Under the pieces are notes generated by a model that was given only the letters and a program-made list of their open reading frames with translations, made no database searches and was not told the DNA's origin. The translations under genes were made by a program, and so were the position numbers. From the NCBI GenBank assembly GCA_009829735.1, contig CM020620.1, positions 11,157,420 through 11,221,419 of the forward strand: a stretch of DNA of 64,000 bases, written 5' to 3'. Below, one piece after another: positions 36,518 through 62,898 of the stretch. This stretch comes from Pyropia yezoensis. Taxonomy: Eukaryota; Rhodophyta; Bangiophyceae; Bangiales; Bangiaceae. The number at the start of each line of letters is the position of its first letter. The stretch's first letter is position 1.

Positions 36518-36880
36518 TGTAGCAATATGGTTGTCCGTATTGTGACCCTAATATTAGGGGGGCTACTTCTAATCCTTAACTTTCAATTTGAGAGTCCGAG
36601 CTGGTCACGGTATCTATAAGTTACGTATGACCAGAGGGACTTGCATCTTGGGGTGGAGGGTAGTTAGTAGTGTCTCCGAGGGTTTATAACGAGGGGGCCG
36701 GTGGCGAATCCACCGCCGGCCAAGGTAGAACAACAAACCCCTCCCATTTGGGCTCCCATCTTGGTCCCGTGGCTTGCGCTCCAAGGACAGCAACCTTGGC
36801 CTCCCGGTGACGTTGGTGCCGATCCCCCTTGGTGAGTGTTCCCTGAGAGTGGACGTGCGACGGATTCCTATTGTACTACA
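36518..36880 (+). repeat. Element A 5' LTR
   Basis: 363 bp, TGTAGCAATATGG...CTATTGTACTACA, with short inverted ends TGTAG/CTACA. A TATA-like TCTATAAG lies at 36613-36620 and could be the U3 promoter. A GGCCGGTGG...CCACCGCCGGCC inverted repeat at about 36697-36722 could fold in the transcript. Confidence 0.95.
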
Positions 36881-36881: not shown

Positions 36882-36899
36882 TGGTGGAGCAGCAGGGGA
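36882..36899 (+). promoter_or_regulatory. Primer binding site of element A
   Basis: TGGTGGAGCAGCAGGGGA begins one base after the LTR end. The opening TGG pairs with the CCA end of a tRNA. The same 18 bases occur in elements B and C and in the remnant at 5936. The tRNA identity was not determined. Confidence 0.8.
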
Positions 36900-37105: not shown

Positions 37106-39289
37106 ATGTCTACCCAAGAGACGGGGAACGTTCAAGATGACGGATCGGCGTCGACGCCGACTCCGGAGGTGACTACGGGAACCGGGATCGGGAACCCGAT
37201 CGATAACATTGAGACGCCAATGCTTTCCGGTGCCGGATCGACGTTTGGCACGGCTCGGACGGCAGGAGGCGGGGGCCCGCCTCAACTGTCGTCGACCGAC
37301 CTCACTCCGCCGCCTCCTTCACCAGGGGATTCCCTGATGGCATCATTGGCCCGCATCGAGGCCCGGTTTTCCGGGCTCGACGCCCGTCAAGATCGGACGG
37401 AGGACGCAATGGCAGTGTTGATGTCAACACGGCACACGACGGGACCCCGTCGTGTTCCTCCCACACCGGTACGGTTCGAACCGGCCGGACTACTTTCGGA
37501 GTCCACCAGGGTCAATCCCGGGGTTGCTACTCCTGGACAACCCCCGGACACAATGGGGTATGGGTCCGACTCGTCGGCAGAGTTGGAACGGAGTCACACG
37601 GAGCGATACGCTCGGAGCACCCGAAGCGGACTCCGCGGACACGACCCGGCGGATACGTACGCCGGGGGAGAGTCGGTTATTGGGGGAGGGGGTACCCTCT
37701 CGCAGTACCCCCACGACGAAGGAGGCCCGGCAACTCGGGGTCCCGAGGTGCCGACGCCTGAAGTACCATCTTCAGTGGTGGAAGCTATGACCGCGCAGGT
37801 AACTGCGAGCCTAATGAAGCGGATGGAGTCCGATGAGTTCGCTCATCAACTGGCTAAGCGACTGGATATCCAGGACGCTGACACGGAGATCGTCAACGAG
37901 GTCTTCCGGTCGGTTCTTACTCCGGAACGTTATCGTTTGGAGGACCGCTCTACCACCGTATCGGAATCGATGCGTAATACGTCGCATCGGGCGATCCGCT
38001 CTATGCAGACCCTTATGAAGGGAGTCCCTATGTTCGGGGGGCCGAACGGACGCCCGTTGGCAGTCATCGGCTTCTTGACCAGCTTCAAGGCAGCCGCAGA
38101 CAAGGCGCTCGTTAACGAGGGGCTGGCCCTGGAGATCCTCCCGTTCTTTGTTGATGAACGGGTGCGAGGCATTCTTCGCCAGGCATCCCCGATGCCGGGA
38201 ATGAGGGTCGCGGCCACCCCCATGGATTACCGTGGGATATTGAAGGAGCTGCTGAGCAGCTACCTCAGTGAGGACAAGTGCGAGGACCACTATCGGGCCC
38301 TTCGCACTGCCACCGCCCAGTCCTGGGAGGATGAGGAGATGTTTGGACGCCGGATCCAAGAGCTCGACTACGAGCTGGGGAAGCTCCTCGGAGAAGGGGA
38401 GCTACGGGCCATCCTGTTCGCAGGAGTACCCAACTACGTGCGGATATCCGCACGGGGCGCCAACACGGCACGGACGAACTTCAGTCGACTGATGCATATG
38501 TGCAAGTCCCTAGGGGACGCCTACCGGGTTCTACACCCGGAGTGTGCCTTGGCCCCGAAGCCCAAGGGTGAGGGAGGCAAGCCCAGTCTTACCCCGGTAC
38601 CGAGGCAAGAGAAGGTGGAACGTAAGGCCGCACCAGTACTGGTGGCGACCGAACATACCCCTATTGGTGAGGGTGACCCTCTAGTCGACCAACAGGGCCA
38701 CCTGTTGCTACCGGCGACGCCGGTGATTGATGAACATGGTACGGTAGCGTACATCGCCCCGGCTGGAACCCAGTTCCAGGTCAACGAAGGAACGGGACGG
38801 CGCGTCCCGTATGTGCGGACTACGGGGTACTCCCCGGTGACGGGTAACCCTCACCAACCCTTGCCAACATGGGCGGTGCGCACGGAGGCACCCCCGCAGA
38901 TTGCGGGCCGACCCAACCGGTTGGGGGAGTCCATGTTCCGGTTGACCCAAGGACCCAAGGCCTACCAGGGAGCAGGCACTCGGGCGCCCGAGGGAGGCAA
39001 CCGTAGCTACGGGGCTACCCCGATGCGACCTCAAGGGGGGACCGGCACGTCCGGATGTATGTTGTGTGGGGATCCCCAGCACTGGGTGTCTTCCTGCCCA
39101 CTCATCCCCGAGGAGTCTCGGCGGGCAGCGGCGCAACGCAAGGCATCCACCGGGGGGTATCCCCCCCGAGCACCCGGACCCGCACCGGGTAGGCAGCCAG
39201 CTCCAGGTGGAGTACTGGCCGTCGAGGGGGCACCTCCTCAGCCGGATGTCCCGGCGGACAGCCCCCTACCAAGGGCGGGAAACGAGTAA
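37106..39289 (+). CDS. gag: Element A Gag
   Basis: 727 residues from the ATG of MSTQETGNV, the first in-frame ATG after the leader. The N-terminal ~230 residues are Gly/Pro/Thr-rich. A helical capsid-like region follows (AHQLAKRLDIQDADTEIVNE; GFLTSFKAAADKALVNEGLA; LRTATAQSWEDEEMFGRRIQ). A CCHC zinc knuckle CMLCGDPQHWVSSC (C-x2-C-x4-H-x4-C, about 39056-39097) sits near the C-terminus. It would form the virus-like particle and package element RNA in the cytoplasm. The slippery heptamer GGGAAAC at 39277 lies one codon before the TAA, so a fraction of ribosomes should continue into pol. An intact frame with a typical domain order makes this call firm. Confidence 0.95.
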   Translation: MSTQETGNVQDDGSASTPTPEVTTGTGIGNPIDNIETPMLSGAGSTFGTARTAGGGGPPQLSSTDLTPPPPSPGDSLMASLARIEARFSGLDARQDRTEDAMAVLMSTRHTTGPRRVPPTPVRFEPAGLLSESTRVNPGVATPGQPPDTMGYGSDSSAELERSHTERYARSTRSGLRGHDPADTYAGGESVIGGGGTLSQYPHDEGGPATRGPEVPTPEVPSSVVEAMTAQVTASLMKRMESDEFAHQLAKRLDIQDADTEIVNEVFRSVLTPERYRLEDRSTTVSESMRNTSHRAIRSMQTLMKGVPMFGGPNGRPLAVIGFLTSFKAAADKALVNEGLALEILPFFVDERVRGILRQASPMPGMRVAATPMDYRGILKELLSSYLSEDKCEDHYRALRTATAQSWEDEEMFGRRIQELDYELGKLLGEGELRAILFAGVPNYVRISARGANTARTNFSRLMHMCKSLGDAYRVLHPECALAPKPKGEGGKPSLTPVPRQEKVERKAAPVLVATEHTPIGEGDPLVDQQGHLLLPATPVIDEHGTVAYIAPAGTQFQVNEGTGRRVPYVRTTGYSPVTGNPHQPLPTWAVRTEAPPQIAGRPNRLGESMFRLTQGPKAYQGAGTRAPEGGNRSYGATPMRPQGGTGTSGCMLCGDPQHWVSSCPLIPEESRRAAAQRKASTGGYPPRAPGPAPGRQPAPGGVLAVEGAPPQPDVPADSPLPRAGNE
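39277..39283 (+). promoter_or_regulatory. -1 ribosomal frameshift heptamer, Gag to Pol
   Basis: G GGA AAC is in exact X XXY YYZ register with the Gag frame, followed by GAG TAA. Slipping back one base gives GGG AAA CGA GTA AGA GGA AGG ATG, which enters the pol frame without a stop; that frame is open from 39193. Downstream pairing is possible: CCGGGG 39302-39307 with CCCCGG 39334-39339, enclosing a small stem. It starts 18 nt away, further than usual. Confidence 0.75.
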
Positions 39290-39297: not shown

Positions 39298-42200
39298 ATG
39301 ACCGGGGGGCGCTGGGGTCACCCAAGCAAGCCACCCCGGAGTACCGCGGGGAAAGCCCCACGGAGAGCGCGGTTGAGCCGACGCCGCATCAACCCCCGGG
39401 TACACCTTCCGGCCCCGACGACACGGCGTCAGGGGATTGATGACCAACCTCCAAAGTTGGGAGGAGAGGACGGGAAGCCCCGTCACGTTGAACCAGACAA
39501 GGGCCCTATTCAGGATGCCCGAGCTACACCGGATATCGGTGTAGGACATGTGTTGTTTACCTTGGAGAACTTCAAGGTATCAGCCACACTGGGGGTTGAC
39601 CCCCAGTCGACACGATCGTACTACCCTGTACTGGATACAGGGGCTGGACCCAACCTTATCCGGAAGGATACCCTCCCGGACAAGTGGCTTCCACGAGTCA
39701 GAGTGACTCGGGGACCCACCATCAAGGACGCGAATGGTCGACTCATTCGTACGACCGCAGCGATGTCGCTGCGGGTTACCATCGGGGATCTCACCACGGA
39801 AGTTGACTTCCTGGTATGTGAAACGCTATCGGTGCCCTGCATACTGGGGTGCACCTTCATCAACGTTCACGTTGATGCAATCCGGCCAGGCCGGAGGACC
39901 GTCGAGCTTCAAGAAGCCGACGGGACGAAGCGAGGACACACGGCTATCGTCAGGGACCTGACGCTACAAGGAAGCCACGTTAACGTGGCTGAGGTGTACG
40001 CAAGCGTCGAGCCGAAGACACTTCGGTTGGCCAAGCGAACTCGCTTTGAGCCGTTGTCGGAGACAGTCCTCCCGGTCAACTGCGACCTCGCAGGCATCTG
40101 CAGAGTCCAGTCCAACCTACGGACGTACAAGCGCCATGGGTTGACCATGGCCAACGGTCTCATAGACCTCCCAGCAGGAGGGTCGTCCCTCCTAGTGATG
40201 GCGAACTATCGCCGTAAGGCAGTCACCCTCCCGAAGGGAACTATCCTCGGGATTGCCGAACTCTACGAAGGAGATATCCTTACCCCTGATAAGGAAGGTC
40301 AAGTGGAACCACTTGAAGTACTGGCGGTCGCCGAGACCACCGAGCGACAGCAAACCGATGACGGGAAGCCTAACCCATCGGCGGCTCCGGCGGACCTGCC
40401 GCCAAAGGACCAAGAGGCCTTGAAGGCACTGGCCGAGGCTGACCTCGACCACCTTCCCCCTTCGGTAGCCGAAGGGGTACGACGGATGCTAAGAAAGCAT
40501 GACGTTATGTGGACAGGCGGGGCCTTGGGGACCATTGGGGCAACCCAACATCGTATAGACCTGGTACCAGGCGCACGACCCGCCCGCTCACAACCGCACC
40601 GAGCGGGACCTATGCAACGAGAGATCGTTGATGGAGAAGTGAAGAGGATGAGTGAAGCTAAGGTGATCCGACCTTCGATGTCGGAATGGGGTGCCCCAGT
40701 CGTTATTGTGCCGAAGAAGGATCAAACCCCTCGGTTTTGCATCGATTATCGACGCCTCAACTTGGTTACCAAGAAGGACTCATACCCTTTACCAAGGATG
40801 GATGAATGCATCGACTCCCTGGGGGAGGCTACGGTGTTTACCACCATCGACTGCAATGCCGGATACTGGCAGATCCCGGTGGCGGACGAGGATATCCCCA
40901 AGACGGCATTCGTCTGTCACAGTGGAGTGTACGAGTTCCTAAGGATGCCCTTCGGATTGTCCAACGCCCCCGCTACATTCCAGCGGGCTATCGACATCAT
41001 ACTGTCGGGGGTGAAGTGGCGTAACTGCCTAGTGTACCTCGATGACGTCATCGTCTTCTCGCGTAACATGGATGACCATGTACAACATGTTGACGAGGTA
41101 CTCACCCTCTTGAGGAACGCCGGGGTAACCCTGCGTCTGAAGAAGTGCGCCTTCTTCCAACAGACGGTCGAGTATCTGGGCCACCAGATAACCCCTGGTA
41201 AACTAGGGGTACTCGAAGCCAATACCCGGGCACTCCGGGATGCCCGGTTCCCTAACACCCAGACGCAGCTCAAGAGCTTCCTGGGAATGTGCAATGTATA
41301 CCGACGGTTCGTCAAGGACTTCGCTCGGATAGCTAAACCGTTAACGGTTCTTACGAGCAGTACCTTACCCAAGGTACTCCAACCCCCTTCGCCTAGCGAA
41401 GAGGAGGCATTCGAGTCGCTGAAGCGAGCCCTACTAGCCCCACCCGTCCTTGCGTTACCGCATAGACGGGGTACCTTCGTCATCGATGTCGATGCGTGTG
41501 ATACACAAGTGGGATGCACCCTGTTACAGGGAGAGACGTTGATCGGTACCGATAACGTTATCCCGGACCTACGTCCGGTAGGGTACTTCAGCCGGACACT
41601 CAACCCGGCTGAGCGGAACAATAGTGCCACCGAGCGTGAATGCCTCGGAGTTATATGGGCAGTGCAACTGCTCCGTCCATACCTGGAGGGCTCCAGGTTC
41701 ATCGTGAGGTCCGACCACGAACCCCTACGATGGCTCCTCAACCTTGGTGACAAGGATTCCGATAGCCATGGGAGGCTAGCCCGATGGAGGCTGAAGATGG
41801 CCGAGCACGACTACCGCACGGTGTATAAGGCTGGGTCAACCCACCACCTCGGAGACGCGTTGTCTCGACTCGACACCCCGAGCGGGGATACCCGCCCGGT
41901 GGACGAGGACATCCCGGTAGTACCGGTGTGCATGGTGGGTAATGCTACCCAGGGTATGGCTGACCATACCATGGCACACCTTGCGTGCCCATTGACCCTC
42001 GCGGACTTCCGCGAGGCACAGGCCAACGACGATGACTGTAGACGTCATCGTGCTAACCTCCTGGCCGGTACGGCCGGCATCTTCTCCGAGAACGAAGACG
42101 GACTCATATACCGGCGGGCACCCGCCGATGGACGACATCAAGTCGTGGTTCCCGTGTCCTTACGGCAAGCCGTCATGAAACGAGAACATGAGAACCCTAC

Positions 42201-43464
42201 AGCCGGACACCCGGGGGGTTCACGTATGTTCGCAGCAATGCGAAGGTTCTTCTACTGGCCAGCAATGGCCGTCGACGTGGTCGACCACGTACGGGGATGC
42301 CACCCCTGTGCACGTAACCGCATGAGTCTACATAGGCGGGCGTCTGCCATGAAGCTATTCCCACCTGATGGGCCCAACGAGCAAGTCGCTATCGACATAC
42401 TCGGGCCACTTCCGATAACGGAAGAAGGGAACAGGTACATCCTGGTCATGTCTGACCGCTTCACTAAGCTGTCAAGAGCGGCAGCCATCCCGAATGATAC
42501 GGCATACACAATCATGAACGCAGTGGTTGACCACTGGATCAGTGCATACGGAGTCATGAAGCAACTCCTCTCCGATAACGGAGCAAACCTTTTGTCGGCA
42601 TTCTGCACGAAGGTCCTGGGCATGTTCGGTATCGAACCACGTCGCGCATCCGACTACCACCCGCAGTCCAACGGGCAGGTGGAGCGGTTCAACCGCACCA
42701 TCGTAAAGATGCTACAGTGCTACGTGGCCGAGCACACGAACACTTGGGACAGGCTTCTGTCCGTACTCACCCTGGCATACAATGCCAGGCCACATCGGAG
42801 CACAAACATTGCTCCGCTGGAGTGGGTCATGCCACTAGGCGTCGGTAACCTGACGCTGCCACCCGGCAGGTGCACTCGGTATGATACACCGAAGGGCCGA
42901 CCCGCCGAACGCATCCACCTAGCTTGGTTGGCCAAGCTATCGTGGATGATTCCTAAGCTCAAGGGTGCCCTTGACAGAACACAACTTCGGTATAAGAAGA
43001 ACTTCGACGCCCGACTACGGGTACGCAACGCAACCCTGGTAACAGGTGACTGGGTCTATATCAGACACCAGAAGTTCCGAGGGAACAAGCTTATGCAACC
43101 GGTCAAGGGACCGTACCAGATCCTCCACAGAGATGACCACTCTGTTATCTTACACTCCGATACGGAGATCCAACGCAACAGTATGAATGATGTCACACCT
43201 GCTCCGAAGCCGGAACAGCCTCAGCCGGTACCGGCTGGGTTGCTACATGAAGCTCTTACAACCCACCGGTCAGATGACCCGGTGGGACCGGATGGGATTC
43301 CATACCAAGTAGAGAGCGTGGTCGGACACACCGACCTGGACCTACCAGGACCCTGGTACGTCAAGGTTATGTGGGTCGGATACGACTCACCCACCTGGGA
43401 ACAGGCGGCAAATATACCCCGCCAACTCCTCATGCCTTACATGAAGCGACGACGCCTACTGTAA
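39298..43464 (+). CDS. pol: Element A Pol (protease, RT, RNase H, integrase, chromodomain)
   Basis: 1388 residues from the first ATG; probably made as a Gag-Pol fusion through the upstream -1 site. The protease motif VLDTGAG is at about residue 111. RT reads FCIDYRRLN, TTIDCNAGYWQIP, FGLSNAPATFQR and YLDD (about residues 579-583). RNase H follows with FVIDVDACD and VRSDHEPL. Integrase has the HHCC zinc site (HENPTAGHPG...CHPCARN) and a DDE triad at about Asp1034 (AIDILGPLP), Asp1093 (LSDNGA) and Glu1129 (NGQVERFN), with 35 residues between the last two. The C-terminal ~60 residues (ESVVGHTDLD...WYVKVMWVGYDSPTWEQ) form a chromodomain-like module, placing it in the chromoviruses, which use it to target chromatin. 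The frame is intact and all catalytic motifs are present. Confidence 0.97.
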   Translation: MTGGRWGHPSKPPRSTAGKAPRRARLSRRRINPRVHLPAPTTRRQGIDDQPPKLGGEDGKPRHVEPDKGPIQDARATPDIGVGHVLFTLENFKVSATLGVDPQSTRSYYPVLDTGAGPNLIRKDTLPDKWLPRVRVTRGPTIKDANGRLIRTTAAMSLRVTIGDLTTEVDFLVCETLSVPCILGCTFINVHVDAIRPGRRTVELQEADGTKRGHTAIVRDLTLQGSHVNVAEVYASVEPKTLRLAKRTRFEPLSETVLPVNCDLAGICRVQSNLRTYKRHGLTMANGLIDLPAGGSSLLVMANYRRKAVTLPKGTILGIAELYEGDILTPDKEGQVEPLEVLAVAETTERQQTDDGKPNPSAAPADLPPKDQEALKALAEADLDHLPPSVAEGVRRMLRKHDVMWTGGALGTIGATQHRIDLVPGARPARSQPHRAGPMQREIVDGEVKRMSEAKVIRPSMSEWGAPVVIVPKKDQTPRFCIDYRRLNLVTKKDSYPLPRMDECIDSLGEATVFTTIDCNAGYWQIPVADEDIPKTAFVCHSGVYEFLRMPFGLSNAPATFQRAIDIILSGVKWRNCLVYLDDVIVFSRNMDDHVQHVDEVLTLLRNAGVTLRLKKCAFFQQTVEYLGHQITPGKLGVLEANTRALRDARFPNTQTQLKSFLGMCNVYRRFVKDFARIAKPLTVLTSSTLPKVLQPPSPSEEEAFESLKRALLAPPVLALPHRRGTFVIDVDACDTQVGCTLLQGETLIGTDNVIPDLRPVGYFSRTLNPAERNNSATERECLGVIWAVQLLRPYLEGSRFIVRSDHEPLRWLLNLGDKDSDSHGRLARWRLKMAEHDYRTVYKAGSTHHLGDALSRLDTPSGDTRPVDEDIPVVPVCMVGNATQGMADHTMAHLACPLTLADFREAQANDDDCRRHRANLLAGTAGIFSENEDGLIYRRAPADGRHQVVVPVSLRQAVMKREHENPTAGHPGGSRMFAAMRRFFYWPAMAVDVVDHVRGCHPCARNRMSLHRRASAMKLFPPDGPNEQVAIDILGPLPITEEGNRYILVMSDRFTKLSRAAAIPNDTAYTIMNAVVDHWISAYGVMKQLLSDNGANLLSAFCTKVLGMFGIEPRRASDYHPQSNGQVERFNRTIVKMLQCYVAEHTNTWDRLLSVLTLAYNARPHRSTNIAPLEWVMPLGVGNLTLPPGRCTRYDTPKGRPAERIHLAWLAKLSWMIPKLKGALDRTQLRYKKNFDARLRVRNATLVTGDWVYIRHQKFRGNKLMQPVKGPYQILHRDDHSVILHSDTEIQRNSMNDVTPAPKPEQPQPVPAGLLHEALTTHRSDDPVGPDGIPYQVESVVGHTDLDLPGPWYVKVMWVGYDSPTWEQAANIPRQLLMPYMKRRRLL

Positions 43465-43742: not shown

Positions 43743-43920
43743 ATGAACCAACCGGAAGAAGTTGGGCGGGAGGCATGGCACCACTGAGCCAGAAGGGGTA
43801 CTCCCCAGGGCAGCAAACAGAGGCAAGCAATGCCCCCAGCGGGGGATGAGTTTATACTCACTACTACCCGGCTACCATAAGGGTTGCCGGGGCCCTCTCC
43901 CGCCCAAACAATAGCATTCC

Positions 43921-46368
43921 TCAGTGGGTAGACCCACTGCCCGAGGGAGGCCACTCACGCGTAAGCGCGTAGACCTCCGTGCTCCACCGGTCGGCAACGT
44001 CACGACGGTCGACCACCCGAGTTACCTCGGTGCATAGCTGGACGAGGGTGCTGCGGCCAGCCTCCACGTCCTCCAGAGCTTTCTGGAGGCGGTCCAGCAC
44101 GCCACCGAAGCAACGCGCTGACCCAACCAGCGCAGCACCTGGGGGGATATCCCCCCAGCTAACAGAGAGACCCCCACGCATTGCGCGGGTAACAAGGGCG
44201 TCAACGCCTTCATACCAGAGACGGGGACCCCCGTCATGTAGGACAGGGGCTGGAGGTGACACTGGCGCAGCCAGAGGAGCCACAGGAGCCGACACGGCTA
44301 CCACCGGAGCCGGTGGCACCTGATACGAGGCCCGGTAGGACCCTACCGAAGGGGCTCCACCGTAACCACGGCGGTACTCCGCCCGACGACGGGACACCTC
44401 ACGCTCCCCACCCACAGAGCCCCACTCTCGGGGACGACGGCCAACCGCCGCCGGCATCGGGTTACCGAACCACGGAGCAAGGACCTGAAGAGGGTCATGG
44501 ATAACCATGGGAATACCCAGGTCAGGAACGGCCTCGGTGGACGCCCACCCATGGCAACTAGGCTCACCCGGCTGAGTACGCCGGACACGCAACGAGTGAC
44601 GAGGCAAGGGGGAAGCCCCAGCCTGCGGGTCCCGGTACGGGGGAAGGGCCAACACCCCAGCCCAGTTCACGGCATCGTGAACAGCCAGCAGGGCTTCGAA
44701 CTCCCGGGCCAACCCGGTCTTGGCAGCTATCAGATCCACGCCCAACTGCGCGATGTGCCGACGGACACCCGTCGGAAGATGAAACAGACGACCCTGCCGG
44801 CGGACGGACAGCAAGAAGGATGAAGCCTGCCCGAGGGTAACCTCAAGGGTGAAGGTACCCTGCAACGGGTGGACCGGTCGCGAGGCCAACACACTCCCGA
44901 AGTAGCGAAGACAGGAGCCGGTGTCAAACCGGAAAGCAGGGGCGGGTTCCCACCCCTCCTGCCATAGCGGCGGGCGCACGGGAGTGTATACCGGAGCACG
45001 ACCGTTGCCGGTCTGCAACGCACACGTTATATCCGTGCGGAACGCATCCGCCATGACACCATGGTTACGTCGCCAACTCGACGCCGACTTCAACCCCGCC
45101 ATGGGCGGGTAGGGAGCCGTCAACGACAGATACGGGGGTACCCCCGGGTAGTAGTCAAAGTCGGGATACCGACCGGTACGGCTCACCGTCTCCCCAAACG
45201 CAACCGGCTCCGCCGCCGCCGCAATCCCCCGAGCACTAGCCGGGTAGTCAATCTCCCGCGGCAACGCGGGGGCAATCAAGTCGCAGACCCCGAAGTTGGG
45301 GTCGAGGTAGACCTCACCCCGTCCCACCCGGGTGCGCCAGAGCTGCGCATGCCGGTCGTCCGGCTGACTCAGGATCCAATGGTGTTCCACCCGGACCGCG
45401 TTCGGCTGGTTGACCAGCCGCACCAACTCCCGCTCCCAGCACGGGTCCACCTTGACGCGCCGGGAGGATTCTCCACGGGGATGCACCAGGTGGAAGTCCA
45501 CCCGCATACGCCCATCGGACTCCATCGACTCTTGCACCGTGAGGCCTCGAACCCGAGCCACCAAGTCGGACACCGACATGGCGGGTTGACCCGCCGCCAC
45601 GGCGACGCCGCCACCCAACGGGGCAACCCGGGCAGGACCAGGAAGAATCGGGGGCGCCGGGGGACGCACCACCGGCAGAGGGGCCGACGTCGGAGATGGA
45701 CGAGGCCGAGGAGGAAGAAGAAGGGCGGGCGCCCGCCCGGAGTAACTCCCGGTGTCAACCGCCATGGGAGAAGGAGCGTCTTGACCGCTCGACGCCCGCG
45801 GCACCGCAGGTACGGCACCGGCGCCGGCACCACCCGTCGGCGTAGCCCCCGCCTCGGAAGGGGAAGGCACTTGGACAGCCTCCGGAGCCGGAGCCCCGGA
45901 CGTGCGGACACCCGCACCGTCTTGACCCGCCGCACCGGGTGTCGCACCGCCACCACCACCCGCGTCAACGTCGGGACCGCCTCGAGGAGTCACCGCCCGG
46001 ACACCCGGACCACCTTGACCAGCCGGAGTCGGCTGCGGGTCGCGACCTCCGCCGCAGGGCGGACCATCTTGAGGTACCTGCGGTGAGCCGGCACCGGCAC
46101 CAGGCCCCATCCGGGCAGCCGGCAGAGAGGGGGTAGAAGCCGCCACGCGCGGTTGACCGCCGGGTTGACCTCCGGCCGACGGCACCGTCGTGCCGCTGCA
46201 CACGGACGACAGTCCTCCGGCCGACAGACGGACGGACACCGCAGGCCCGTCGTCGTCAGACGAGCTCACCCCGTAACGCGCGGCGTCGGGACCGACAGGC
46301 GCGTCGTCCTCCATCTCCTCCCCGATCAGGAGGTCTTCCTCCTCTTCAAGCACCTGGGGATAGGACAT
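43921..46368 (-). CDS. Element A antisense accessory protein
   Basis: 815 residues on the strand opposite to gag-pol, from the ATG of MSYPQVLEEEEDLL. The N-terminus is acidic (LLIGEEMEDDAPVG). About 250 residues of Gly/Pro/Ala-rich disorder follow, then a folded-looking half (LVARVRGLTVQESMES onwards). In it, PPYLSL (about residue 410), LRYFGSV (about 489) and GRLFHLP (about 527) match in order and spacing PPYL, LDHFGSV and GMLWHLP of the antisense protein of element B. The C-terminal part is helical (GGVLDRLQKALEDVEAGRST). I see no signal peptide or membrane segment, so an envelope role is unlikely. Antisense extra genes between pol and the 3' LTR are known in some plant Ty3/gypsy elements; the function there is mostly unknown. 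The start faces the 3' LTR, which could supply an antisense promoter. Confidence 0.8.
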   Translation of the reverse strand: MSYPQVLEEEEDLLIGEEMEDDAPVGPDAARYGVSSSDDDGPAVSVRLSAGGLSSVCSGTTVPSAGGQPGGQPRVAASTPSLPAARMGPGAGAGSPQVPQDGPPCGGGRDPQPTPAGQGGPGVRAVTPRGGPDVDAGGGGGATPGAAGQDGAGVRTSGAPAPEAVQVPSPSEAGATPTGGAGAGAVPAVPRASSGQDAPSPMAVDTGSYSGRAPALLLPPRPRPSPTSAPLPVVRPPAPPILPGPARVAPLGGGVAVAAGQPAMSVSDLVARVRGLTVQESMESDGRMRVDFHLVHPRGESSRRVKVDPCWERELVRLVNQPNAVRVEHHWILSQPDDRHAQLWRTRVGRGEVYLDPNFGVCDLIAPALPREIDYPASARGIAAAAEPVAFGETVSRTGRYPDFDYYPGVPPYLSLTAPYPPMAGLKSASSWRRNHGVMADAFRTDITCALQTGNGRAPVYTPVRPPLWQEGWEPAPAFRFDTGSCLRYFGSVLASRPVHPLQGTFTLEVTLGQASSFLLSVRRQGRLFHLPTGVRRHIAQLGVDLIAAKTGLAREFEALLAVHDAVNWAGVLALPPYRDPQAGASPLPRHSLRVRRTQPGEPSCHGWASTEAVPDLGIPMVIHDPLQVLAPWFGNPMPAAVGRRPREWGSVGGEREVSRRRAEYRRGYGGAPSVGSYRASYQVPPAPVVAVSAPVAPLAAPVSPPAPVLHDGGPRLWYEGVDALVTRAMRGGLSVSWGDIPPGAALVGSARCFGGVLDRLQKALEDVEAGRSTLVQLCTEVTRVVDRRDVADRWSTEVYALTREWPPSGSGSTH

Positions 46369-46942
46369 GATAACGGGTGCGGAGTCCCCCGCGCCCACAA
46401 GCCGTCGACGGCTACAACCCGGTACGGTGGGATAACCGGGACGAGCCAGGGAAGCGCGGACACCCGCGCTTATGACCACAAACGGCTACGAGAAGCGCCA
46501 CAAACACGCGGGTCGACCCGCGCCCCACGGGGCTACGAACGCGCTCCACCCAGGCACCTGGGCGGGACGGGGCCACCCCCACACACGGGGTAAGCAAAGG
46601 GGGGTCACCCCCAACCGCCCCCACGCAACGCGGGCAGCCCCCGCCCCCCACTCAATCGTCCACACGAGAGGGGCCCCCCTACCACCAGGCACCTGGTGGC
46701 GGATCCGCTTGCACCACCCCTCGGAAAGGGGGGTCGTGAACAAAAACCCGCATCGGGAAATTAACGGTCCGGAAAACGGATCGTGTGTGTACCACACAAA
46801 GGGGGGCACCCCCCTCGGACAACCTCGAAAAGGGGTGTCTGTCGCGACGGGGCGCAAAGCCCCACCCGACGGGTAAACAGTCACGCGACCCACTTACATT
46901 CGGTAACCCGAATGCAACTCGACCCGAGGACGGGCCGAATCT

Positions 46943-46952
46943 AAGGGGGGGA
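46943..46952 (+). promoter_or_regulatory. Polypurine tract of element A
   Basis: AAGGGGGGGA lies two bases before the 3' LTR, the expected position for the plus-strand primer of reverse transcription. Confidence 0.7.
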
Positions 46953-46954
46953 TA

Positions 46955-47317
46955 TGTAGCAATATGGTTGTCCGTATTGTGACCCTAATATTAGGGGGGC
47001 TACTTCTAATCCTTAACTTTCAATTTGAGAGTCCGAGCTGGTCACGGTATCTATAAGTTACGTATGACCAGAGGGACTTGCATCTTGGGGTGGAGGGTAG
47101 TTAGTAGTGTCTCCGAGGGTTTATAACGAGGGGGCCGGTGGCGAATCCACCGCCGGCCAAGGTAGAACAACAAACCCCTCCCATTTGGGCTCCCATCTTG
47201 GTCCCGTGGCTTGCGCTCCAAGGACAGCAACCTTGGCCTCCCGGTGACGTTGGTGCCGATCCCCCTTGGTGAGTGTTCCCTGAGAGTGGACGTGCGACGG
47301 ATTCCTATTGTGCTACA
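46955..47317 (+). repeat. Element A 3' LTR
   Basis: 363 bp, identical by eye to the 5' LTR except G for A near the end (TGTGCTACA against TGTACTACA). It is followed by the 5-bp duplication GCCCG at 47318-47322. Confidence 0.95.
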
Positions 47318-51153: not shown

Positions 51154-51798
51154 TGTGGCGTTCTGAGCCCCTGGGACCGTTGGAACCCGGGAGACTGACT
51201 TGGGACCCGGCTGGCAGCGTTACGTGGAACCACGCGCTGGCCGAGGATCCCTGCATCGGTGGCCCGGGGCAGTGGCGACACGCCCGGTGCCCTGATTGGT
51301 CACCCGGAGCGGTGGACTTGCCGGGTTGGGGCATACTGACCTTCGGGTTATTTGTTTGATTTTTCGCATTTGTTTTCCTTGCGTGATTTCGTGTCTTTCC
51401 CCTTTTTCCCACTGGGTTTTTTTTCGGGGATTGACATTTGTGTGTGGGGGGATTTCGCTTGCTTTTTGTGTGTTAGCCCGGTGAGCGGCCGGTGCCTTGC
51501 TGGCACTTGGCCCGCTGGGGGCGCCCTCTGGGGGCCTCGCTCAGGGCCCCGGGAGGGGCCAGGGGGGGAGGTTCTTGAGGGGTGCTCCGGGGTTCTCCAC
51601 GGGGCCATCTTGTAAAATCAACAGTACTTTGGGTTCCTTCTCCCTCGGGCTTTTGTCCTGTTTACCTTTGCCTCGTATCGTGGCGGGCGAGTGGATCAGC
51701 AAGGGCTCTTACCTGTTCCTTCCTGGGCTTCGGACTGTGGTCTCTGTGTGTGTGGTTGTGGCTTCTGGGTCCGGGAATCTGGGTCCCATTACGCTACA
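51154..51798 (+). repeat. Element C 5' LTR (start inferred)
   Basis: The end CGCTACA at 51798 is fixed by the primer site that follows. The start TGTGGCG at 51154 is inferred, since it is nearly the inverted copy of that end, giving about 645 bp. The U3/R region contains T-rich stretches (about 51350-51475) unusual for this window. No second LTR copy is available to confirm the ends. Confidence 0.6.
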
Positions 51799-51820: not shown

Positions 51821-51939
51821 GGGCTTTACTCTTCTCCCGTATCGGGACAGCCCTCTTCTTTCTCTGTGGCGTTTGGTTCCTTGGTTCTTGTTTCTAGTAA
51901 CGAGATCGTTTGGTTCAGGTCGAGTGCCGCACGGCCAAC

Positions 51940-53200
51940 ATGACGGACCCTGTCCCTTCGGGCGGTCGGGGCCGTGGTGCGCCGTCGGACGTTTCGATGG
52001 TTACTCCCGCTGGCCGTGGCCGCGGCAGTCCCTCGGGTCCGTCGAACCGTGGTGGAGGCGGGCCGACAGGGATTCCTCGTCGGGGGACAGCGCCCCCGGG
52101 TGGGATCCGGGTTACATTGGGTCAGGATTTACGTGGGAACGCGGGTTCCGAGTCAGGGGCCCGAGTTCCACCTTCGGCTACTGTTGCAGGGTCCCCGGAC
52201 ATTGTGTCCACACTGGAAACGTTTCGAGATGAGATTTTGGCTACTGTTTCCCAGGCCCTGAGCCAGAGTCCTGCTGGCCAGGGTGGGTCCCGTGATACCA
52301 GTCGTTCCGATCGTTCTCGTTCCCGCCGTCACCGGCGTCGTCATCATTCGAGTGGCTCCTCTTCCTCTTCTTCCTCTGGTACCACATTTTCATCCGTCTT
52401 CGACGAGGAGGACCTGGAACCCATTCAGAACCCACGAACCGAGCCCCAGGTAATCAAGTGTTCCGACGTTCGTTTTGCTCGGGTCCTGGACTATCGTACG
52501 TATCGCCTACGGAACAAGAAATCGACCTATGGAACGCGAGAAGCACGTAAGATGGGACGGGTTGCTCGTAACATGAAACATTCGTTTGCTGGGTACCCTA
52601 ATTTCTCTGGGAAGGAAGCCCTCAAGGTGTTCACGTGGCTCCGCAAACTGGTTAAGGCATGTAACGATAATGGGGTTTCCGAGGGCATGGCCCTGTACGC
52701 GATCCCTCATTTCCTGTCTGGGGACGCGGAACTGCGGTACACTCGGGCCCTTCCGGACTCCTCAAGCGCGTCAGGTGGCGCTTCGATCACGAGTTACCCT
52801 GAGGCTGTTAACTGGTTCCTTGAAACGTACGCTGAACCCCATGCGTTGGCACTGGCGCAGGACAAGTTCAGTCGGGCCGCCAAGGAACCAGATGAGGGTA
52901 TCGAGGCCTTTGCGGTACGCTTACGGGGTCTGACGGAACTATGTGGTAACATCCACACCGAAGGTTCCATGAAACAGCAGCTGATTCAAGGGCTCCCTGA
53001 GTACCTACGTACGGACGCATTTGTTTACAATATCCATGAACGTACGTACCAGCAGCTGGTAACGTTTACTGCGGGCAAGAACAAGGCGGCTACCGAGGTT
53101 ATTAAGATGGCCCGAGGGTCCTCTGTGACCAAGACTGGCCCCTCTGGAACCGTCCGCAGACCCACTGAACCGAGGCCCAATCGTTCGTTGGACTCGTCCC
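51940..53200 (+). pseudogene. gag: Element C Gag, part 1, interrupted by element B
   Basis: Starts at the ATG of MTDPVPSGGRGRGA. A Gly/Arg/Ser-rich N-terminus with a Ser run (HRRRHHSSGSSSSSS) is followed by a capsid-like helical region (NFSGKEALKVFTWLRKLVKA; EAVNWFLETYAEPHALALAQ; FAVRLRGLTELCGNIHTEGS). The frame continues a short way into the LTR of element B before stopping. The true continuation is at 62423, where the codon begun at 53200 is completed. Broken by insertion only; no other defect is visible in the part seen. Confidence 0.9.
53196..53200. repeat. Target site duplication of element B, left
   Basis: GTCCC before the element B LTR, matched by GTCCC at 62418-62422. Confidence 0.9.
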
Positions 53201-53669
53201 TGTGGCAAAAACCACAAGCACACACGGCACCCAAGTTGGGGCGGTGTGCCAGGGCTGCCTCCCGTGTCGGGGGAACCGGAAGAAGTGCAAGTCGCACACA
53301 CTCTGTCCCTGTTGTGGGGCAAACCCCCCACGGACAAACAAGAGGATTGTGTGTGGTCCAACAGTTTCTTGGTCGGGACGGGGACGCAGGGCCAAGCCCC
53401 GCTGTCCCTCCCCTTATCCCCCCAGGGTCCACTCAGAATCTCGCCACTCAGAATCTCCCACCCCAGCACCTGCCCACCGGGCCACACGAAAATTCAAGAC
53501 GATAAATGCAGAAAACCCTCAAATCCAAGTTGGATTTACTACTAAGCTAACTATCCCACAAACTTAGGGAATATGGACCCAAATGCAGGGGGAGGAACGG
53601 ATCAGGCTAGTGGCCTGCCGCCCCTTGCATGGCACGTGTTGCCCCCCTACCTGGGGGTCAATACTGCCA
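53201..53669 (-). repeat. Element B 3' LTR (left on plus)
   Basis: 469 bp; on minus it starts TGGCAGTATTGACCCCCAGG and ends GTTTTTGCCACA. It matches 61948-62417 except for one missing C in a C-run and a T/G change near 53348. Confidence 0.95.
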
Positions 53670-54009: not shown

Positions 54010-55233
54010 ATGGCGACTCCGGAAGTGGAGACGGACTCTCTTGACGAGCGCATGGAGGACACCTCTTACGGTGCAGCACCCGCCGGGACTTCCGGCGGGG
54101 GCTCCGCGATCGCTCCGGGGGATGGGACTCCCGCGTCACCCGGCTTTGGGTTGACGGCGGGATCTCCCCCGGAGGCGGGACAAGTTGTCCCGCGTGAGGC
54201 CTTGGGGCGGTGGTTTTACCCCGCTTGGCCTCTTTATGAGGAGGGGTTGACTGTTCTTCGCTGTGGCCGACTTGGCGCAGCGATGGGCCGGGTATGGGAC
54301 CGCCTACGGGAGAAGTATCCCCGTAGGGTCGGGTTCCCGGCCGGCTTCAGGACGGACCAGTTTGCCTTCCTGGACGACGAGGAGGTTGAAGACGTCCAAC
54401 GTGCCAAGGCCATGGTGGACCGCGGGGGAACTATCCCGGGTCCCGGCGACTTGCCGACCTTCACGTGGGACGCTGTGGCAACTCGCCCACCGTACCTCCA
54501 CGAGGCCGATCCGCACACTCATCACTTTGATGTGCGGATGGAGAAAGACTTCCGGCGAGGTCCCTACTTGGTGACCTCGGCTCAACTTGAGTTTCCTCAA
54601 CAGTCTGCTGCCAGTAAGGAGCAGTACTATCCGAAGAAGCCCGAGTGGTGGCCTCAAGTTGAGGTCCCCTACGGGTTCCCGGCGTTGTTGCCCCGGCTGC
54701 TTGACCACTTCGGCTCCGTCATGTTGACGGCTGCCCCTGATCACCTGGTGTGGGCTATGTTGGCCACCCAGTGGCTCCTCGAGGTCATGTCGACCTGGGT
54801 GTCCTGTGTTCAGCGGCGGGGGATGCTCTGGCATCTCCCCCTCCGGCTCATCCAGGGTTTGGAACAGCTCACCCCTCAGCTAGTTGCTGAGGGGTGCTCA
54901 TCAGGACAACTCACTCTACTTGAGGAGATGCTTGGGCTCCATAAGTTTATCGAGTGGGAGAGCATTGAGCACAAGTTGCGCCGCCCCACTCGTGGGCCCA
55001 AGGACGATGGCGCACTTCGCCAGTTCGTGTGGGTCGCTCGTGAACTTCACGACGGCCGTGTGGTCCTACGAGAGGGGTTGGGCATCGGGGGCTACCCGTA
55101 TGCCCCGGGGGTGGATCGCCACACTGCGCCACCCCCGGACAAGCCCATAGTTATGGCCGTGCCGTCCTATGATGACCACATGACTCAACCCACTGCGGGA
55201 GCCCCAAGTTGGTGTTGCCGCCCACGCCTCTAA
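54010..55233 (+). CDS. Element B antisense accessory protein, main part
   Basis: About 407 residues from the ATG of MATPEVETDSLDERMED, on the strand opposite to gag-pol, between the 3' LTR and the end of pol. The N-terminus is acidic and then Gly/Pro-rich. A folded region follows: PLYEEGLTVLRCGRLGAAMG; PPYLHEADPHTHHFDVR (about residue 160); LLDHFGSV (about 230); RRGMLWHLPLRLIQGLEQL (about 270); LLEEMLGLHKFIEW. Order and spacing of PPYL, FGSV and HLP match the antisense protein of element A, so I infer a common origin. There is no transmembrane segment or signal peptide. The frame stops at 55233, but a second frame overlapping it carries the likely C-terminal part. The 3' LTR lies just upstream and might act as promoter. 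Confidence 0.75.
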   Translation: MATPEVETDSLDERMEDTSYGAAPAGTSGGGSAIAPGDGTPASPGFGLTAGSPPEAGQVVPREALGRWFYPAWPLYEEGLTVLRCGRLGAAMGRVWDRLREKYPRRVGFPAGFRTDQFAFLDDEEVEDVQRAKAMVDRGGTIPGPGDLPTFTWDAVATRPPYLHEADPHTHHFDVRMEKDFRRGPYLVTSAQLEFPQQSAASKEQYYPKKPEWWPQVEVPYGFPALLPRLLDHFGSVMLTAAPDHLVWAMLATQWLLEVMSTWVSCVQRRGMLWHLPLRLIQGLEQLTPQLVAEGCSSGQLTLLEEMLGLHKFIEWESIEHKLRRPTRGPKDDGALRQFVWVARELHDGRVVLREGLGIGGYPYAPGVDRHTAPPPDKPIVMAVPSYDDHMTQPTAGAPSWCCRPRL

Positions 55234-55790
55234 CCTCAGAGATGATGATCACCACGTTGGTGCGCACCATTTCCTGGTTGGCCGCGTCGACCGCAACCCT
55301 GCAGAGTTCCGAGACTCCTCAACTTGAGGAGCGCGTTCGTACTGCAGTGGCGACCGCGAGTTGCGAGTCGGTGGCGGAGTTTATGACAGCCGAGTTGGCT
55401 CGCATTGGGGCTATTATGCCCCAGCCAGCCCCACTTGGGCGTGGCAAACGTCGCGCGAGCCGGGCATACTCGCCTCCTCGCCGTCGTCGCCGACACTCGC
55501 GGCGCTCTCCTTCCGTATCGGAGGATGAGTTGTCTTACTCCGTTTCGGAGTCCTCTACCCCGTCGGAGACGGAGTCTGTCCAGCGTCTGCGTCGCAAACT
55601 TGCGCGCAAGACCAGGCAGAAGAGTGGCCACGGTCGGCGCCACTTGCGCGACCGTGAGGGGCGCGACGGTTCCGACTTGGAGCCGCCGCCCCCTCCAACG
55701 AGTGGAGACCGTTATCGGCGTGGGTCTCGCCGCTCGCCTCCACGGGAGGGCGAGGGCCGTGGAGTGGGAGAGTCTAGTATGCGTGCCTAG
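55209..55790 (+). CDS. Element B antisense protein, C-terminal part in -1 frame
   Basis: The frame overlaps the end of the preceding one and has no ATG at its beginning. It reads TPLTSEMMITTLVRTISWLA, EERVRTAVATASCESVAEFM and then a strongly basic Arg/Ser-rich region (YSPPRRRRRHSRRSPSVSE; RKLARKTRQKSGHGRRHLRD) suited to nucleic-acid binding. It probably belongs to the same protein, reached through a frameshift, a small intron, or a one-base loss in this copy. It ends 111 bp before the pol stop of the opposite strand. Confidence 0.6.
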   Translation: MVLPPTPLTSEMMITTLVRTISWLAASTATLQSSETPQLEERVRTAVATASCESVAEFMTAELARIGAIMPQPAPLGRGKRRASRAYSPPRRRRRHSRRSPSVSEDELSYSVSESSTPSETESVQRLRRKLARKTRQKSGHGRRHLRDREGRDGSDLEPPPPPTSGDRYRRGSRRSPPREGEGRGVGESSMRA

Positions 55791-55894: not shown

Positions 55895-55919
55895 CCTTCC
55901 CTCACGTTGAGGGAGGGCT
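55895..55919. other. Hairpin overlapping the pol stop of element B
   Basis: CCTTCCCTCA-CGT-TGAGGGAGGG forms a stem of about 9-10 bp (perfect for the inner 7). It sits between the convergent antisense gene and pol, the same place as the hairpin cluster of element A. Confidence 0.6.
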
Positions 55920-58900
55920 GTTAGGGTCTATCTCATTCCGGGCACAGTACGCCCGGACCATCTCAGCGGGAAGGTCCTCCACATACTCCCACGTATCATC
56001 CTTGGCTTTGTAGCCAAACCAACGCACCCTCAACATGAGGCGGTCAGTGTCTTCATCCCATCCGTGGTCGATGAACTTATCGAACACGTACTCCTGCGGG
56101 CCCTGTTTGGCCGCAGGCAGTGAGGGGAGGCGCCACGACTCCAACGCACGTGCCCAAGCTGGGTCGCCTGCAGGCGGTGGTGCAACTTTGACCACGTCCT
56201 GTCCGTTCACTGTGCGGACCCCATCGTCACTTTCGATGGTGAAGCGCCGCCCATCAGTACGAAGGACCTGGTACGGTCCCTTCGTCTGGAATACCAGCTT
56301 ACCCCCAGTTGGGGTGTGCGAGTGTACCAGCACCCAGTCACCCTGCTCGGGGACATGTTTAGCATTGCGCACCTTTTTGTCAAAGGTACGCTTGTAGCGC
56401 TTTTGTGCTTTGTCCATCTCAGCCCTGACTTTAGGGATGAGGTTTTCAAGCCTAGCGGCGAACTCCGCCTTACTCTCAGTAGGAGTAGGCGTACTGCCAC
56501 CATCCTCCCTAGTTGGGAGCGACCGCCGCACGGCAATAGACCGCACACGACGGCGGGTCACAAAAGCGAGGGGTACTTCCCCTGTAGATGAGTGAACCTG
56601 CGAATTGTAGGCAGTAGTAAGGATAGAAATGTATTGGTCCCACGTCTTCACGTGCTCACTCACACAGTGGCGCAGCTGCCTAACAATAGTTTTGTTGAAG
56701 CGCTCCACCTGCCCATTAGTTTGTGGGTGGTAGGGGGTGGCATAGTTTGCCTTAACCCCCAACATATCCAGCACTCCCTGAAACAGTACAGACGCAAATT
56801 GCGGCCCATTGTCCGATAGTGTACTATCTGGGATGCCATACGCGGCAACCCAGTGATCTAGGAAGGCTGACACGACCGACATGGCCGTGATCTCTGCCAG
56901 TGGGATCGCTCGCGTAAGTTTCGTGAAGCGGTCACAGATGACCAGGAGGTACTGGTTGCCTTCCTCGGTGACTGGCAGCGGCCCAAGGATGTCAATCGCC
57001 AACGCGGCGAAGGGCTCCTTGGCCGGGAACAATAGCATAGCCGTACTACGCCGCCGTTCCATCAGACGGTTCTGTGCACAACTTGTGCAGGCAGCCACCC
57101 AACTGTAGATGTCCACCACCTTGGACGGCCAGTAGTACCTGGTCCTCAGGGTCTGGTACAGTTTACTAGACCCCAGGTGTCCACCCGTGGGAGCGTTGTG
57201 CTCCCTCTCAAGGATACTGTCCTTGAGGGATGCGGGGACGACAAGTTGTTCGGTCCCCTGGAATACCCCCCTCCTCATGAGGAGGCCATCGTCTCCCAGA
57301 AAGAACCGCGTCTCCGCCACTGTATCCAGTGTATCCCTCTGCGACTTGCAGAAGGGATCCTCGGCCTGGGCCTTCACCACCTCGTCCAGGGACAGGGGCA
57401 AGTACTTCTTGTTCCCTGGCGCCTCGGGGTTCAACGCCTGACCCGAGCGCGTGACTACCCCCACGATGGGGATGTCCTCATCGACTGGGTTAGTGTCCAG
57501 CCCCTCGGTAGGTACCCGAGAGAGGCCGTCGGCAAGGGCATGTTGCCTGCCAGGTCGGTACTCAACGTCAAAGTTGAAGGGTGCCAGTCGCACCCTCCAC
57601 CGGTTGAGACGAGTGTTCGTACAGTCCGTCTTGAAGATAAACTGCAACGCGCGGTGGTCACAGCGGATGAGGAACTTCTCACCCTCCAGGTAGTGACGAA
57701 GTGACGTCACCGCCCATACAACTGCGAGTCCTTCCAACTCGGTGACTCCGTAGTTCTTCTCGGCCGAGTTCAGCCCCTTACTGAAGTATCCCACCGGCAA
57801 GTACGCCTTGTCCGGCTGCTGCAGAAGCAACACACAACCAAGTTGGTCGTAGCTAGCGTCCACATCCAGGATGTAGTGGCCTCCCAACCTGGGAATAGCC
57901 AAGATGGGGGGCTTCAGCAGAAGGTCCCGAAGAGTCTCAAAGGATTCCTGCTCCACCCGACTTGGGGGAGGCAGGTTCTTCGGTAGCGTTGAGCTCACTA
58001 GCTCATTCAACGGCTTCGCCACCTTGGCGAAGCCCTTGGTGAAACGTCGGTACACGTTGCACATCCCGAGGAAGCTCCTCATCTGGGTCTGGGTCCGGGG
58101 GTAATGAGCCTTACGTATGGCCCTCAAGTTCTTCTCGTTAACACTGAGACGCCCCGGACGGACAACATGTCCCAAGTACTCCACCTCTTGAGTGAAGAGG
58201 TGGCACTTACTCGCCTTCAGTGACACACCGGCGTCAGCAAGTAGCTTGAACACCTGGCAAAGATGGCCAATGTGTTCCTCCGGACTTCGGGAGAACACAA
58301 TGATGTCGTCTAGGTACACAAGACAGATCTGCCACCGTACTCCGGCCAGAATCATGTCCATAGCGCGCTGGAAAGTTGCCGGCGCGTTACACAGACCAAA
58401 CGGTAGGCGCTTGCACTGGTAGGTACCACAGTGACAGGTAAAGGTAGTTTTATGCCTGTCCTCCGGGGCAATGGGAATTTGCCAGTACCCCGCGTTACAG
58501 TCCAGGGTAGAGAACACGTTCGCCTCCCCCAGAGAGTCCAGACAGTCATCCATCCTAAGTAGGGGATAACTGTCCTTCACCGTGCTCTCGTTGAGCTTAC
58601 GGTAGTCGATACAAAACCGGGGGGTCCCATCAACTTTGGGGACTATGACCACCGGACTCGCCCACTCGGCGTTGCTGGCCTCGATCACCTCGAGGGCCTC
58701 CATGCGAGCAACTTGCTCCTTAACGAGGGCCCTTGAACGGGGTCCTCCCCTATACGGTTGTTGGCGTATAGGGGGTGCACCGGGCTTCAACTCGATCCGG
58801 TGTTGGGTAGCTCTCATGAGTCCCAATTGACCATCCCACAACTTGTGATATTGGTCCAAGAGGCGTTCAACTTGAACCCTCAACCTGGGGGGGACACCCT

Positions 58901-61828: not shown

Positions 61829-61927
61829 GTTGGCTGACGATCCGTATGACACGGTCCAAGACCACCGTTCCTCTGAGACAGAGGGCCCCCTACACCCGGG
61901 TGCACCCGGAGGTAAAGTTTACCTCTG

Positions 61928-61945
61928 TCCCCTGCTGCTCCACCA
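61928..61945 (-). promoter_or_regulatory. Primer binding site of element B
   Basis: On minus TGGTGGAGCAGCAGGGGA, two bases inside the 5' LTR end; the same as in elements A and C. Confidence 0.8.
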
Positions 61946-61947: not shown

Positions 61948-62417
61948 TGTGGCAAAAACCACAAGCACACACGGCACCCAAGTTGGGGCGGTGTGCCAGG
62001 GCTGCCTCCCGTGTCGGGGGAACCGGAAGAAGTGCAAGTCGCACACACTCTGTCCCTGTTGTGGGGCAAACCCCCCCACGGACAAACAAGAGGATGGTGT
62101 GTGGTCCAACAGTTTCTTGGTCGGGACGGGGACGCAGGGCCAAGCCCCGCTGTCCCTCCCCTTATCCCCCCAGGGTCCACTCAGAATCTCGCCACTCAGA
62201 ATCTCCCACCCCAGCACCTGCCCACCGGGCCACACGAAAATTCAAGACGATAAATGCAGAAAACCCTCAAATCCAAGTTGGATTTACTACTAAGCTAACT
62301 ATCCCACAAACTTAGGGAATATGGACCCAAATGCAGGGGGAGGAACGGATCAGGCTAGTGGCCTGCCGCCCCTTGCATGGCACGTGTTGCCCCCCTACCT
62401 GGGGGTCAATACTGCCA
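61948..62417 (-). repeat. Element B 5' LTR (right on plus)
   Basis: 470 bp. Near-identical to 53201-53669. Followed on plus by GTCCC, the right copy of the target duplication. Confidence 0.95.
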
Positions 62418-62422: not shown

Positions 62423-62868
62423 CGTTGATGGCTGTTAATCCCATGGGCCCCTCTACGATCCTTAAGGGCCCTCTCGAGAAGGAAACTGAGAAGAACGGGT
62501 CGGGTCAAGTGTTTGGGTTCAAGGGACCCATGCCCCAGTTCGTGGGAGTACGTACCATGGACAGTCGGCGCCCGTACCGTTGTTACCTTTGTTGGGAACC
62601 GGGTCACATGGCCTATCAATGTTCCATGTTGTCTGAGGTCCAACGGAAAGCGGTTCTCCAGGCCCGGGACTCGTTCCTTGCGGCCACTCGTGGACGGAGT
62701 CAGAGTACCGATGTAAAGCCGAACGCGGACCGCCAGTTCCATCGTCAGATCCGGGTTGCTATGGTTCAGGCCCTTTGTGAAGGGATAAACCTCTCGGATG
62801 ACGAGGCGGACCAGGGGTACCAAGTGAACAACGGTTCCCAGGAGCCGGGACCCTCGGGAAAAGAGTAA
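62423..62868 (+). pseudogene. gag: Element C Gag, part 2 (C-terminal, zinc knuckle)
   Basis: Continues the frame of 51940-53200 after element B. It holds the zinc knuckle CYLCWEPGHMAYQC (C-x2-C-x4-H-x4-C, 62581-62622) and ends SGKE then TAA. The slippery heptamer lies at 62856-62862. Apart from the insertion the frame is intact. Confidence 0.9.
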
Positions 62869-62898
62869 CGGGGGGCGGATCGAAACGGTCCCCTCCCC
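62856..62898 (+). promoter_or_regulatory. -1 frameshift heptamer and stem-loop of element C
   Basis: G GGA AAA in Gag register (62856-62862), then GAG TAA. After a 7-nt spacer a hairpin can form. The 5' arm GGGGGGCGGATC (62870-62881), loop GAAAC, and 3' arm GGTCCCCTCCCC give about 11 pairs with one bulged C and two G-U pairs. Heptamer, spacer and stem match the classic layout of -1 frameshift signals. The -1 frame is open from here through the protease to the window end. Confidence 0.8.

Follow-up and report, generated by a model that had tools for sequence, protein, structure and literature searches.

The window considered here is a stretch of 64,000 nucleotides from the red alga Pyropia yezoensis (assembly GCA_009829735.1, contig CM020620.1, positions 11,157,420 to 11,221,419, forward strand). 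It carries three retrotransposons with long terminal repeats (LTRs), here called A, B and C, and in each of them an open reading frame (ORF) lies between pol and the 3' LTR on the strand opposite to gag-pol. This antisense gene is the subject of the analysis. A and B are complete elements of the Ty3/gypsy type, flanked by target-site duplications of 5 bp; both have LTRs, a gag and a pol in which reverse transcriptase, RNase H and integrase follow in that order. Element C has LTRs, and its gag and pol frame are homologous to those of A and B; it continues beyond the window, where positions are given in L039. LTR retrotransposons predominate among the predicted repeats of P. yezoensis (48.0% of the genome; PMC7423979). 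The features of the three elements are as follows.

Element A, 36518-47317 (gag and pol on the plus strand, antisense ORF on the minus strand):
36518..36880, plus: 5' LTR, 363 bp, identical to the 3' LTR at 362/363 positions; preceded by the target-site duplication GCCCG
36882..36899, plus: putative primer-binding site, TGGTGGAGCAGCAGGGGA, a word common to A, B and C
37106..39289, plus: gag (A/B gag BLASTP E 1.5e-17)
39298..43464, plus: pol, with reverse transcriptase, RNase H and integrase; protease match slightly below cut-off
43921..46368, minus: antisense gene, 815 codons; conserved core at about residues 345-575
46369..46954, minus: leader, from the antisense ATG to the 3' LTR; candidate antisense promoter region
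46955..47317, plus: 3' LTR, followed by GCCCG

Element B, 53201-62417 (minus strand, antisense ORF on the plus strand):
53201..53669, minus: 3' LTR; target-site duplication GTCCC
54010..55233, plus: antisense gene, first (core) part; the frame stops here in the window copy
55176..55790, plus: antisense gene, C-terminal part and Arg/Ser-rich tail, in a different frame in the window copy
55902..60044, minus: pol, with reverse transcriptase, RNase H and integrase matches as in A and a weak C-terminal chromodomain match
59882..61918, minus: gag with a CCHC zinc knuckle
61928..61945, minus: putative primer-binding site
61948..62417, minus: 5' LTR; set against the 3' LTR it shows one mismatch and a single 1-base indel (each LTR is about 469 bp long)

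Element C:
51154..51798, plus: 5' LTR, 99.07% identical over 645 bp to L039:6231-6874, beyond the window
51901..53200, plus: gag, broken at 53201 by the insertion of B
62802..64000, plus: first part of the pol frame, whose end is at L039:3535
L039:3919-5907, minus: antisense gene, beyond the window end; two open pieces in this copy

The antisense ORF of A runs from ATG to stop between the end of pol at 43464 and the 3' LTR, and the initial annotation, which placed an antisense gene at 43921-46368, is confirmed on this point. For B it had proposed a single protein at 54010-55790. The gene is indeed antisense and lies between the 3' LTR and pol, but the window copy is not one ORF: the frame from 54010 terminates at 55233, the copy is missing residues that other B copies have, and the Arg/Ser-rich tail, which had also been noted, is present but in the second frame. 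Among 30 B copies fetched, 22 read 647 codons and five read 407, 411, 583, 641 and 652; the remaining three were unscored, the start word used being absent. In the five fetched C copies nearest to the one by the window (L041-L045) the frame is open over 663 codons.

The protein has three parts: a low-complexity N-terminus, which in A and B is acidic; a conserved core, about 230 residues long; and a C-terminus that varies. The acidic starts described earlier for A and B are borne out by net charges of -12 and -7 over the first 60 residues (-1 in C). By the pattern used, B has basic clusters, C has a single one and A has none. Position between pol and the 3' LTR is that of env, and an envelope-like protein comes to mind on this ground; the gene is nevertheless on the wrong strand, and no membrane segment is found by hydropathy in the A, B or C antisense proteins, the largest 19-residue means being 1.37, 1.28 and 1.08. 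The initial annotation had already set aside a typical envelope, and an envelope-like role is hardly credible.

Homology of the A and B antisense proteins had been proposed from shared PPYL, FGSV and HLP motifs, with the prospect that profile methods would detect no similarity if the idea were wrong. Similarity is readily detected. BLASTP gives 53.1 bits (E 2e-11; 24% identity over 230 residues); with other settings it gives 52.0 bits, where 200 shuffles of A reach 29.3 at most. Comparison by hhalign gives a probability of 88 (E 3.4e-6), and the three motifs align. Judged from these alignments, the similarity is beyond chance and the two proteins are homologous. The two families of the earlier proposal have moreover become three: a profile of A and B detected the antisense gene of C at E 1e-7 in a six-frame search of 8 kb. 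B and C are joined by hhalign at a probability of 96 (E 4.1e-9, 238 columns), while A and C match more weakly (probability 62, E 7.7e-5, 163 columns; BLASTP E 0.002). Since the pol proteins of the three elements are only 40.3-41.8% identical in pairwise comparison, the antisense gene would be at least as old as the split of the lineages, or would have moved between them long ago.

Pairwise identity is 24.3-25.0% for the antisense protein and 24.5-35.8% for gag. This similar degree of divergence, together with the low-complexity ends, would suit a partner of the particle, either assembling with Gag or serving the genomic RNA as a chaperone inside the virus-like particle. On the other side, no relation in sequence to the gag of A, B or C was found (nine comparisons, best E 0.099), and to make a particle component from an antisense transcript of its own would be a strange means of setting stoichiometry; a particle role is considered unlikely.

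The initial annotation took conservation in two divergent families to imply selection. This holds in A and C, which the selection figures cover; the B copies are too alike for measurement. The ratio of nonsynonymous to synonymous substitution rates (dN/dS) is 0.28-0.31 for the window copy of A against each of the eight copies taken from a diverged subfamily (L058-L063, L067, L068), and 0.26-0.28 against L064-L066. Two of these 11 copies contain a stop, one each in L058 and L059. An additional reading, that a subfamily had spread with a broken gene ('3 TGA' in several A-type rows), was dropped because four such copies (L060-L063) have no stop in the stretch homologous to A. For C, all copies were cut as open frames; 10 of the 15 cut were used, and all 45 pairs give a dN/dS of 0.27-0.63, a value raised in a few copies, e.g. 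L049, that are out of register at the end.

For some pairs the same DNA was read in all six frames. The ratio of the proportions of nonsynonymous and synonymous sites that differ (pN/pS) is, in four A pairs, 0.27-0.38 for the antisense frame, 0.45-0.52 for the frame with the same third positions and 0.89-2.25 for the others. In seven C pairs the corresponding values are 0.45-0.59, 0.53-0.69 and, for the other four, 0.99-1.66, and the five frames other than the antisense one hold 12-35 stops. For the pol tails of C, four comparisons yield 0.14-0.24 (0-2 stops), and L046, with 3 stops, yields 0.50. On these comparisons the antisense gene is under purifying selection in both lineages tested.

Two alternatives are relevant here. 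Control by the antisense RNA itself, in which a double-stranded RNA formed with the genomic RNA would matter and the ORF would be incidental, has a precedent in that such a role for antisense transcripts is discussed in PMC7264820; an RNA role alone would not produce the selection seen in A and C, which is specific to the frame and acts at the level of amino acids, and we regard this explanation as very improbable. A chance open frame in a G+C-rich genome has in its favour that 158 stop-to-stop frames in the window reach 150 codons or more. Homology across three families, named homologues from a second species, and selection that is specific to the frame stand against it, and make it next to impossible. 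That this is a real gene, of shared ancestry in the three elements and under selection, is almost certain.

In the A family the gene is also a regular part of the element. Genome-wide, with 30-base words and up to 2 mismatches, the A-type antisense core has 626 matches and the common pol word 777 (the form of the pol word in the window, 2 bases from the common form, gave 333, a count superseded by the 777). In the first 31.4 Mb of contig C1, among the exact matches listed and for the A family only, a convergent pol word lies no more than 6 kb from 77 of the 94 antisense words, at a spacing of 2200-2249 bp in 73 of the 77 pairs; counted in reverse, 77 of 100 pol words are paired with an antisense word. 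The antisense gene is present in most A-family copies. At C1:978169 and C1:25481481 the pol and antisense words are separated by 1099 bp where about 2225 is usual, possibly through a shared internal deletion.

Genome searches scored the best 55 of 39137 candidates for A, 88 of 3605 for B and 91 of 1931 for C. Among these best candidates the matched stretch is free of stops in 53/55, 85/88 and 48/92 matches, rates that lean to good copies because only the best were scored. Identity among the C-type matches varies between 37 and 100%. Twelve diverse C-type copies, fetched with their flanks, mostly have a pol end that converges on the antisense gene; at L052 and L055 a B-type pol stands instead beside the C-type antisense match (nested or broken). 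A further arrangement is seen at C2:9880067-9892399, where four antisense-gene matches follow one another at a constant step of 3489 bp. The unit in L069 (C2:9883400-9887100) corresponds to a segment of A that begins just past the antisense stop and takes in the whole 3' LTR; the locus therefore has the appearance of antisense gene and LTR repeated head to tail, with gag-pol missing.

Relatives are found outside P. yezoensis as well. Protein searches, in which a match must share 5-residue words with the query and which in two of three cases scored the best 8000 candidates, returned eight relatives of A, one of B and five of C (one of them a EukProt entry). Six of the A relatives are proteins of Pyropia vietnamensis, MMPV_009242, MMPV_008948, MMPV_008454, MMPV_001347, MMPV_008444 and MMPV_010020, with 52-63% identity over 24-98% of the query region; one has 62% identity over 98% of the 301-residue query region. 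They belong to the same protein family as A and, known there merely as hypothetical proteins, are probably retroelement genes. A scan of IMG/VR viral contigs with the A alignment gave 97 pattern matches, none of which was confirmed.

Comparison of A copies reveals that the gene does not vary evenly along its length. In 60-base windows, A and L059 are 82-93% identical at the pol end, 78-98% in the leader and 92-100% in the LTR (an edge window is lower); the antisense N-terminus is mostly at 83-97%, and the core and C-terminus are at 37-88%, with a mean of about 70%. L058 is like L059, its LTR being partly covered and one window between pol and the antisense gene being poor; its leader is 91.7% identical to that of A. 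Fourfold sites that differ between A and L058 number 43/180 in the pol tail, 19/134 in antisense residues 1-200 and 112/260 in residues 260-815 (p 3e-5 for pol vs core, 3e-9 for N-terminus vs core, 0.04 for pol vs N-terminus), and against L058 and L059 the break in synonymous rate is located at 43900-45640. P0003, which may come from another species, has the reverse pattern, with a core 96% identical to A and an N-terminus at 43%. The rate break and the pattern of P0003 are read as the outcome of recombination, and suggest that A subfamilies have exchanged the core; a less probable alternative is that mutation was uneven or that the N-terminal DNA is constrained. In the C-type copies L040 (3225-3868) and L048, pol differs at half of the synonymous sites and the LTRs are 95-100% identical over most of the part compared; diverged pol beside near-identical LTRs indicates that the LTRs too may be exchanged.

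A core that is apparently exchanged and changes faster than pol resembles another class of element proteins. The VANC proteins of plants remove host silencing from the element that encodes them, and the antisense protein could likewise be a fast-changing factor that lifts host silencing. The 626 A-type words that the genome contains, a number suggestive of a recent burst, are in keeping with this. A core that recognised its own LTR or leader should, however, co-vary with it, and between A and L059 the core has fallen to about 70% beside a leader and an LTR that have changed little. The core is for the same reason unlikely to act by LTR recognition only, and an anti-silencing role is given a small chance.

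The place of the gene has counterparts elsewhere. As the initial annotation stated, plant elements with antisense extra genes are known: such genes between pol and the 3' LTR are described in plants and Botrytis (PMC7264820), and A, B and C fall under the definition of the aORF-3R class of Vicient and Casacuberta (antisense, between pol and 3' LTR). The antisense ORFs of maize Grande (gene23) and rice RIRE2 agree with those of the alga in place and strand, by their published description, and are found in most copies; in Grande the protein is located in the nucleus, and the gene is served by a promoter of its own (PMC7264820). Boty of Botrytis cinerea and Sclerotinia, outside the plants, is likened by description in the same way, its antisense ORF lying between pol and the 3' LTR (PMC7264820). 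According to the same source, the antisense extra genes of plant retrotransposons lack an established function or origin. ORF4 (TRP28; PF04195, Transposase_28) of the Retand elements of flowering plants is also antisense and between pol and the 3' LTR, as in the alga, and it is present in nearly all recently active clusters, with its function described as unknown (PMC11963269). PF04195 was absent from the listing when 13 antisense proteins were searched as far as E 10, a scan in which the HMMER filters drop most weak matches; it had no match in the P. yezoensis genome, where the control genomes likewise gave none above cut-off. Retand is described as a non-chromovirus lineage (PMC11963269); B may differ in this respect, its chromodomain match being weak and below cut-off. 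HBZ of human T-cell leukemia virus type 1 (HTLV-1), the nuclear product of an antisense retroelement gene with an antisense promoter in the 3' LTR, is an analogy of plan only (PMC7264820, PMC11963269).

The explanation that we favour, tentatively and with somewhat more doubt than trust, is that the antisense gene is the third gene of a group of red-algal Ty3/gypsy elements and encodes a trans-acting nuclear regulator from an antisense transcript. On the simplest view the gene would have been inherited from the common ancestor of at least three lineages; it is read opposite to gag-pol and converges on pol. The transcript would start in the 3' LTR or the adjoining leader and be translated, and the protein may act in trans in the nucleus, where it would influence how the element is expressed or integrated, a role already proposed for Grande gene23. 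A gene on its own strand, a neighbouring 3' LTR, an acidic N-terminus in A and B and an Arg/Ser tail in B are best fitted by a regulator, after the manner of Grande gene23 and Retand. The nuclear-regulator role, taken by itself, is possible, though we would sooner doubt it than assert it. More doubtful still is the proposal that the core is a module exchanged among subfamilies beside a nearly constant LTR and leader, in an independent HBZ-like antisense regulator that arose outside flowering plants, fungi and animals and is older than the split of at least three lineages.

Several observations weigh against the favoured explanation. The proteins of A and C have isoelectric points of 7.0 and 5.9, and the Arg/Ser-rich tail is found in B only. 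Searches of Pfam, NCBIfam, PHROGs and PDB sequences gave no family above cut-offs, nucleic-acid-binding or other; weak scores for DUF6214, DUF641, DACNK and YjbE are regarded as chance. Constraint is weaker than on pol (pN/pS for A vs L058 of 0.37 in the antisense gene and 0.13 in the pol tail). The young copies L060-L063 have a dN/dS of 0.65-1.59, and the value of 0.74 for L058 vs L059 counts against constant selection; such high values are as expected for neutral decay after insertion. A stop lies in the matched stretch of 44 of the 92 C-type matches, some of which are pieces of one copy, and the lack of stops in the C antisense frame in the six-frame reading follows from the way in which the copies were cut.

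The suggestion of the initial annotation that the family may be new agrees with the database searches, and no publication on it was found as far as searched. The protein family appears to be undescribed, the Grande, RIRE2 and Boty proteins having been likened by description only. Among the titles listed by searches of one open-access library, none deals with antisense genes in red-algal LTR elements; the place of the gene, already known from plants and Botrytis, is apparently unreported from red algae in the literature searched. Accessory genes in red-algal DNA transposons are cited by PMC12477816. It is important to emphasize that a diverse red-algal family, with selection in two of its three lineages, indicates that an antisense gene of this kind can be ancient and can benefit the element that carries it. 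The three families, the subfamilies in which different cores accompany an almost unchanged LTR, and the hundreds of A-type copies in a cultivated alga together provide a comparative set for the study of its function.

Some further features of the window complete the description. The gag of A matches no Pfam family above cut-off. In B pol the chromodomain match (PF00385) has E 0.0014 and 18.9 bits, below the cut-off of 25.1, and in A pol it is not listed; a study of 2012 reported none from a retrotransposon in Porphyra yezoensis sequences (PMC3350952). The word TGGTGGAGCAGCAGGGGA, which we take to be the primer-binding site, occurs in a window in which no tRNA genes were found. In the antisense leader of A, a perfect 16-bp palindrome at 46507-46522, CGCGGGTCGACCCGCG, is present in L058 too and is a possible regulatory site; at up to 2 mismatches it has 1 match in the window, and 19 of 100 shuffles contain at least one. 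Remnants are also present: an A-type LTR with adjoining leader at 5571-6195 (93% identity over 626 bp), which includes at 5936 a fourth copy of the primer-binding word, and a B-like integrase fragment at 1678-2073 (78% identity).

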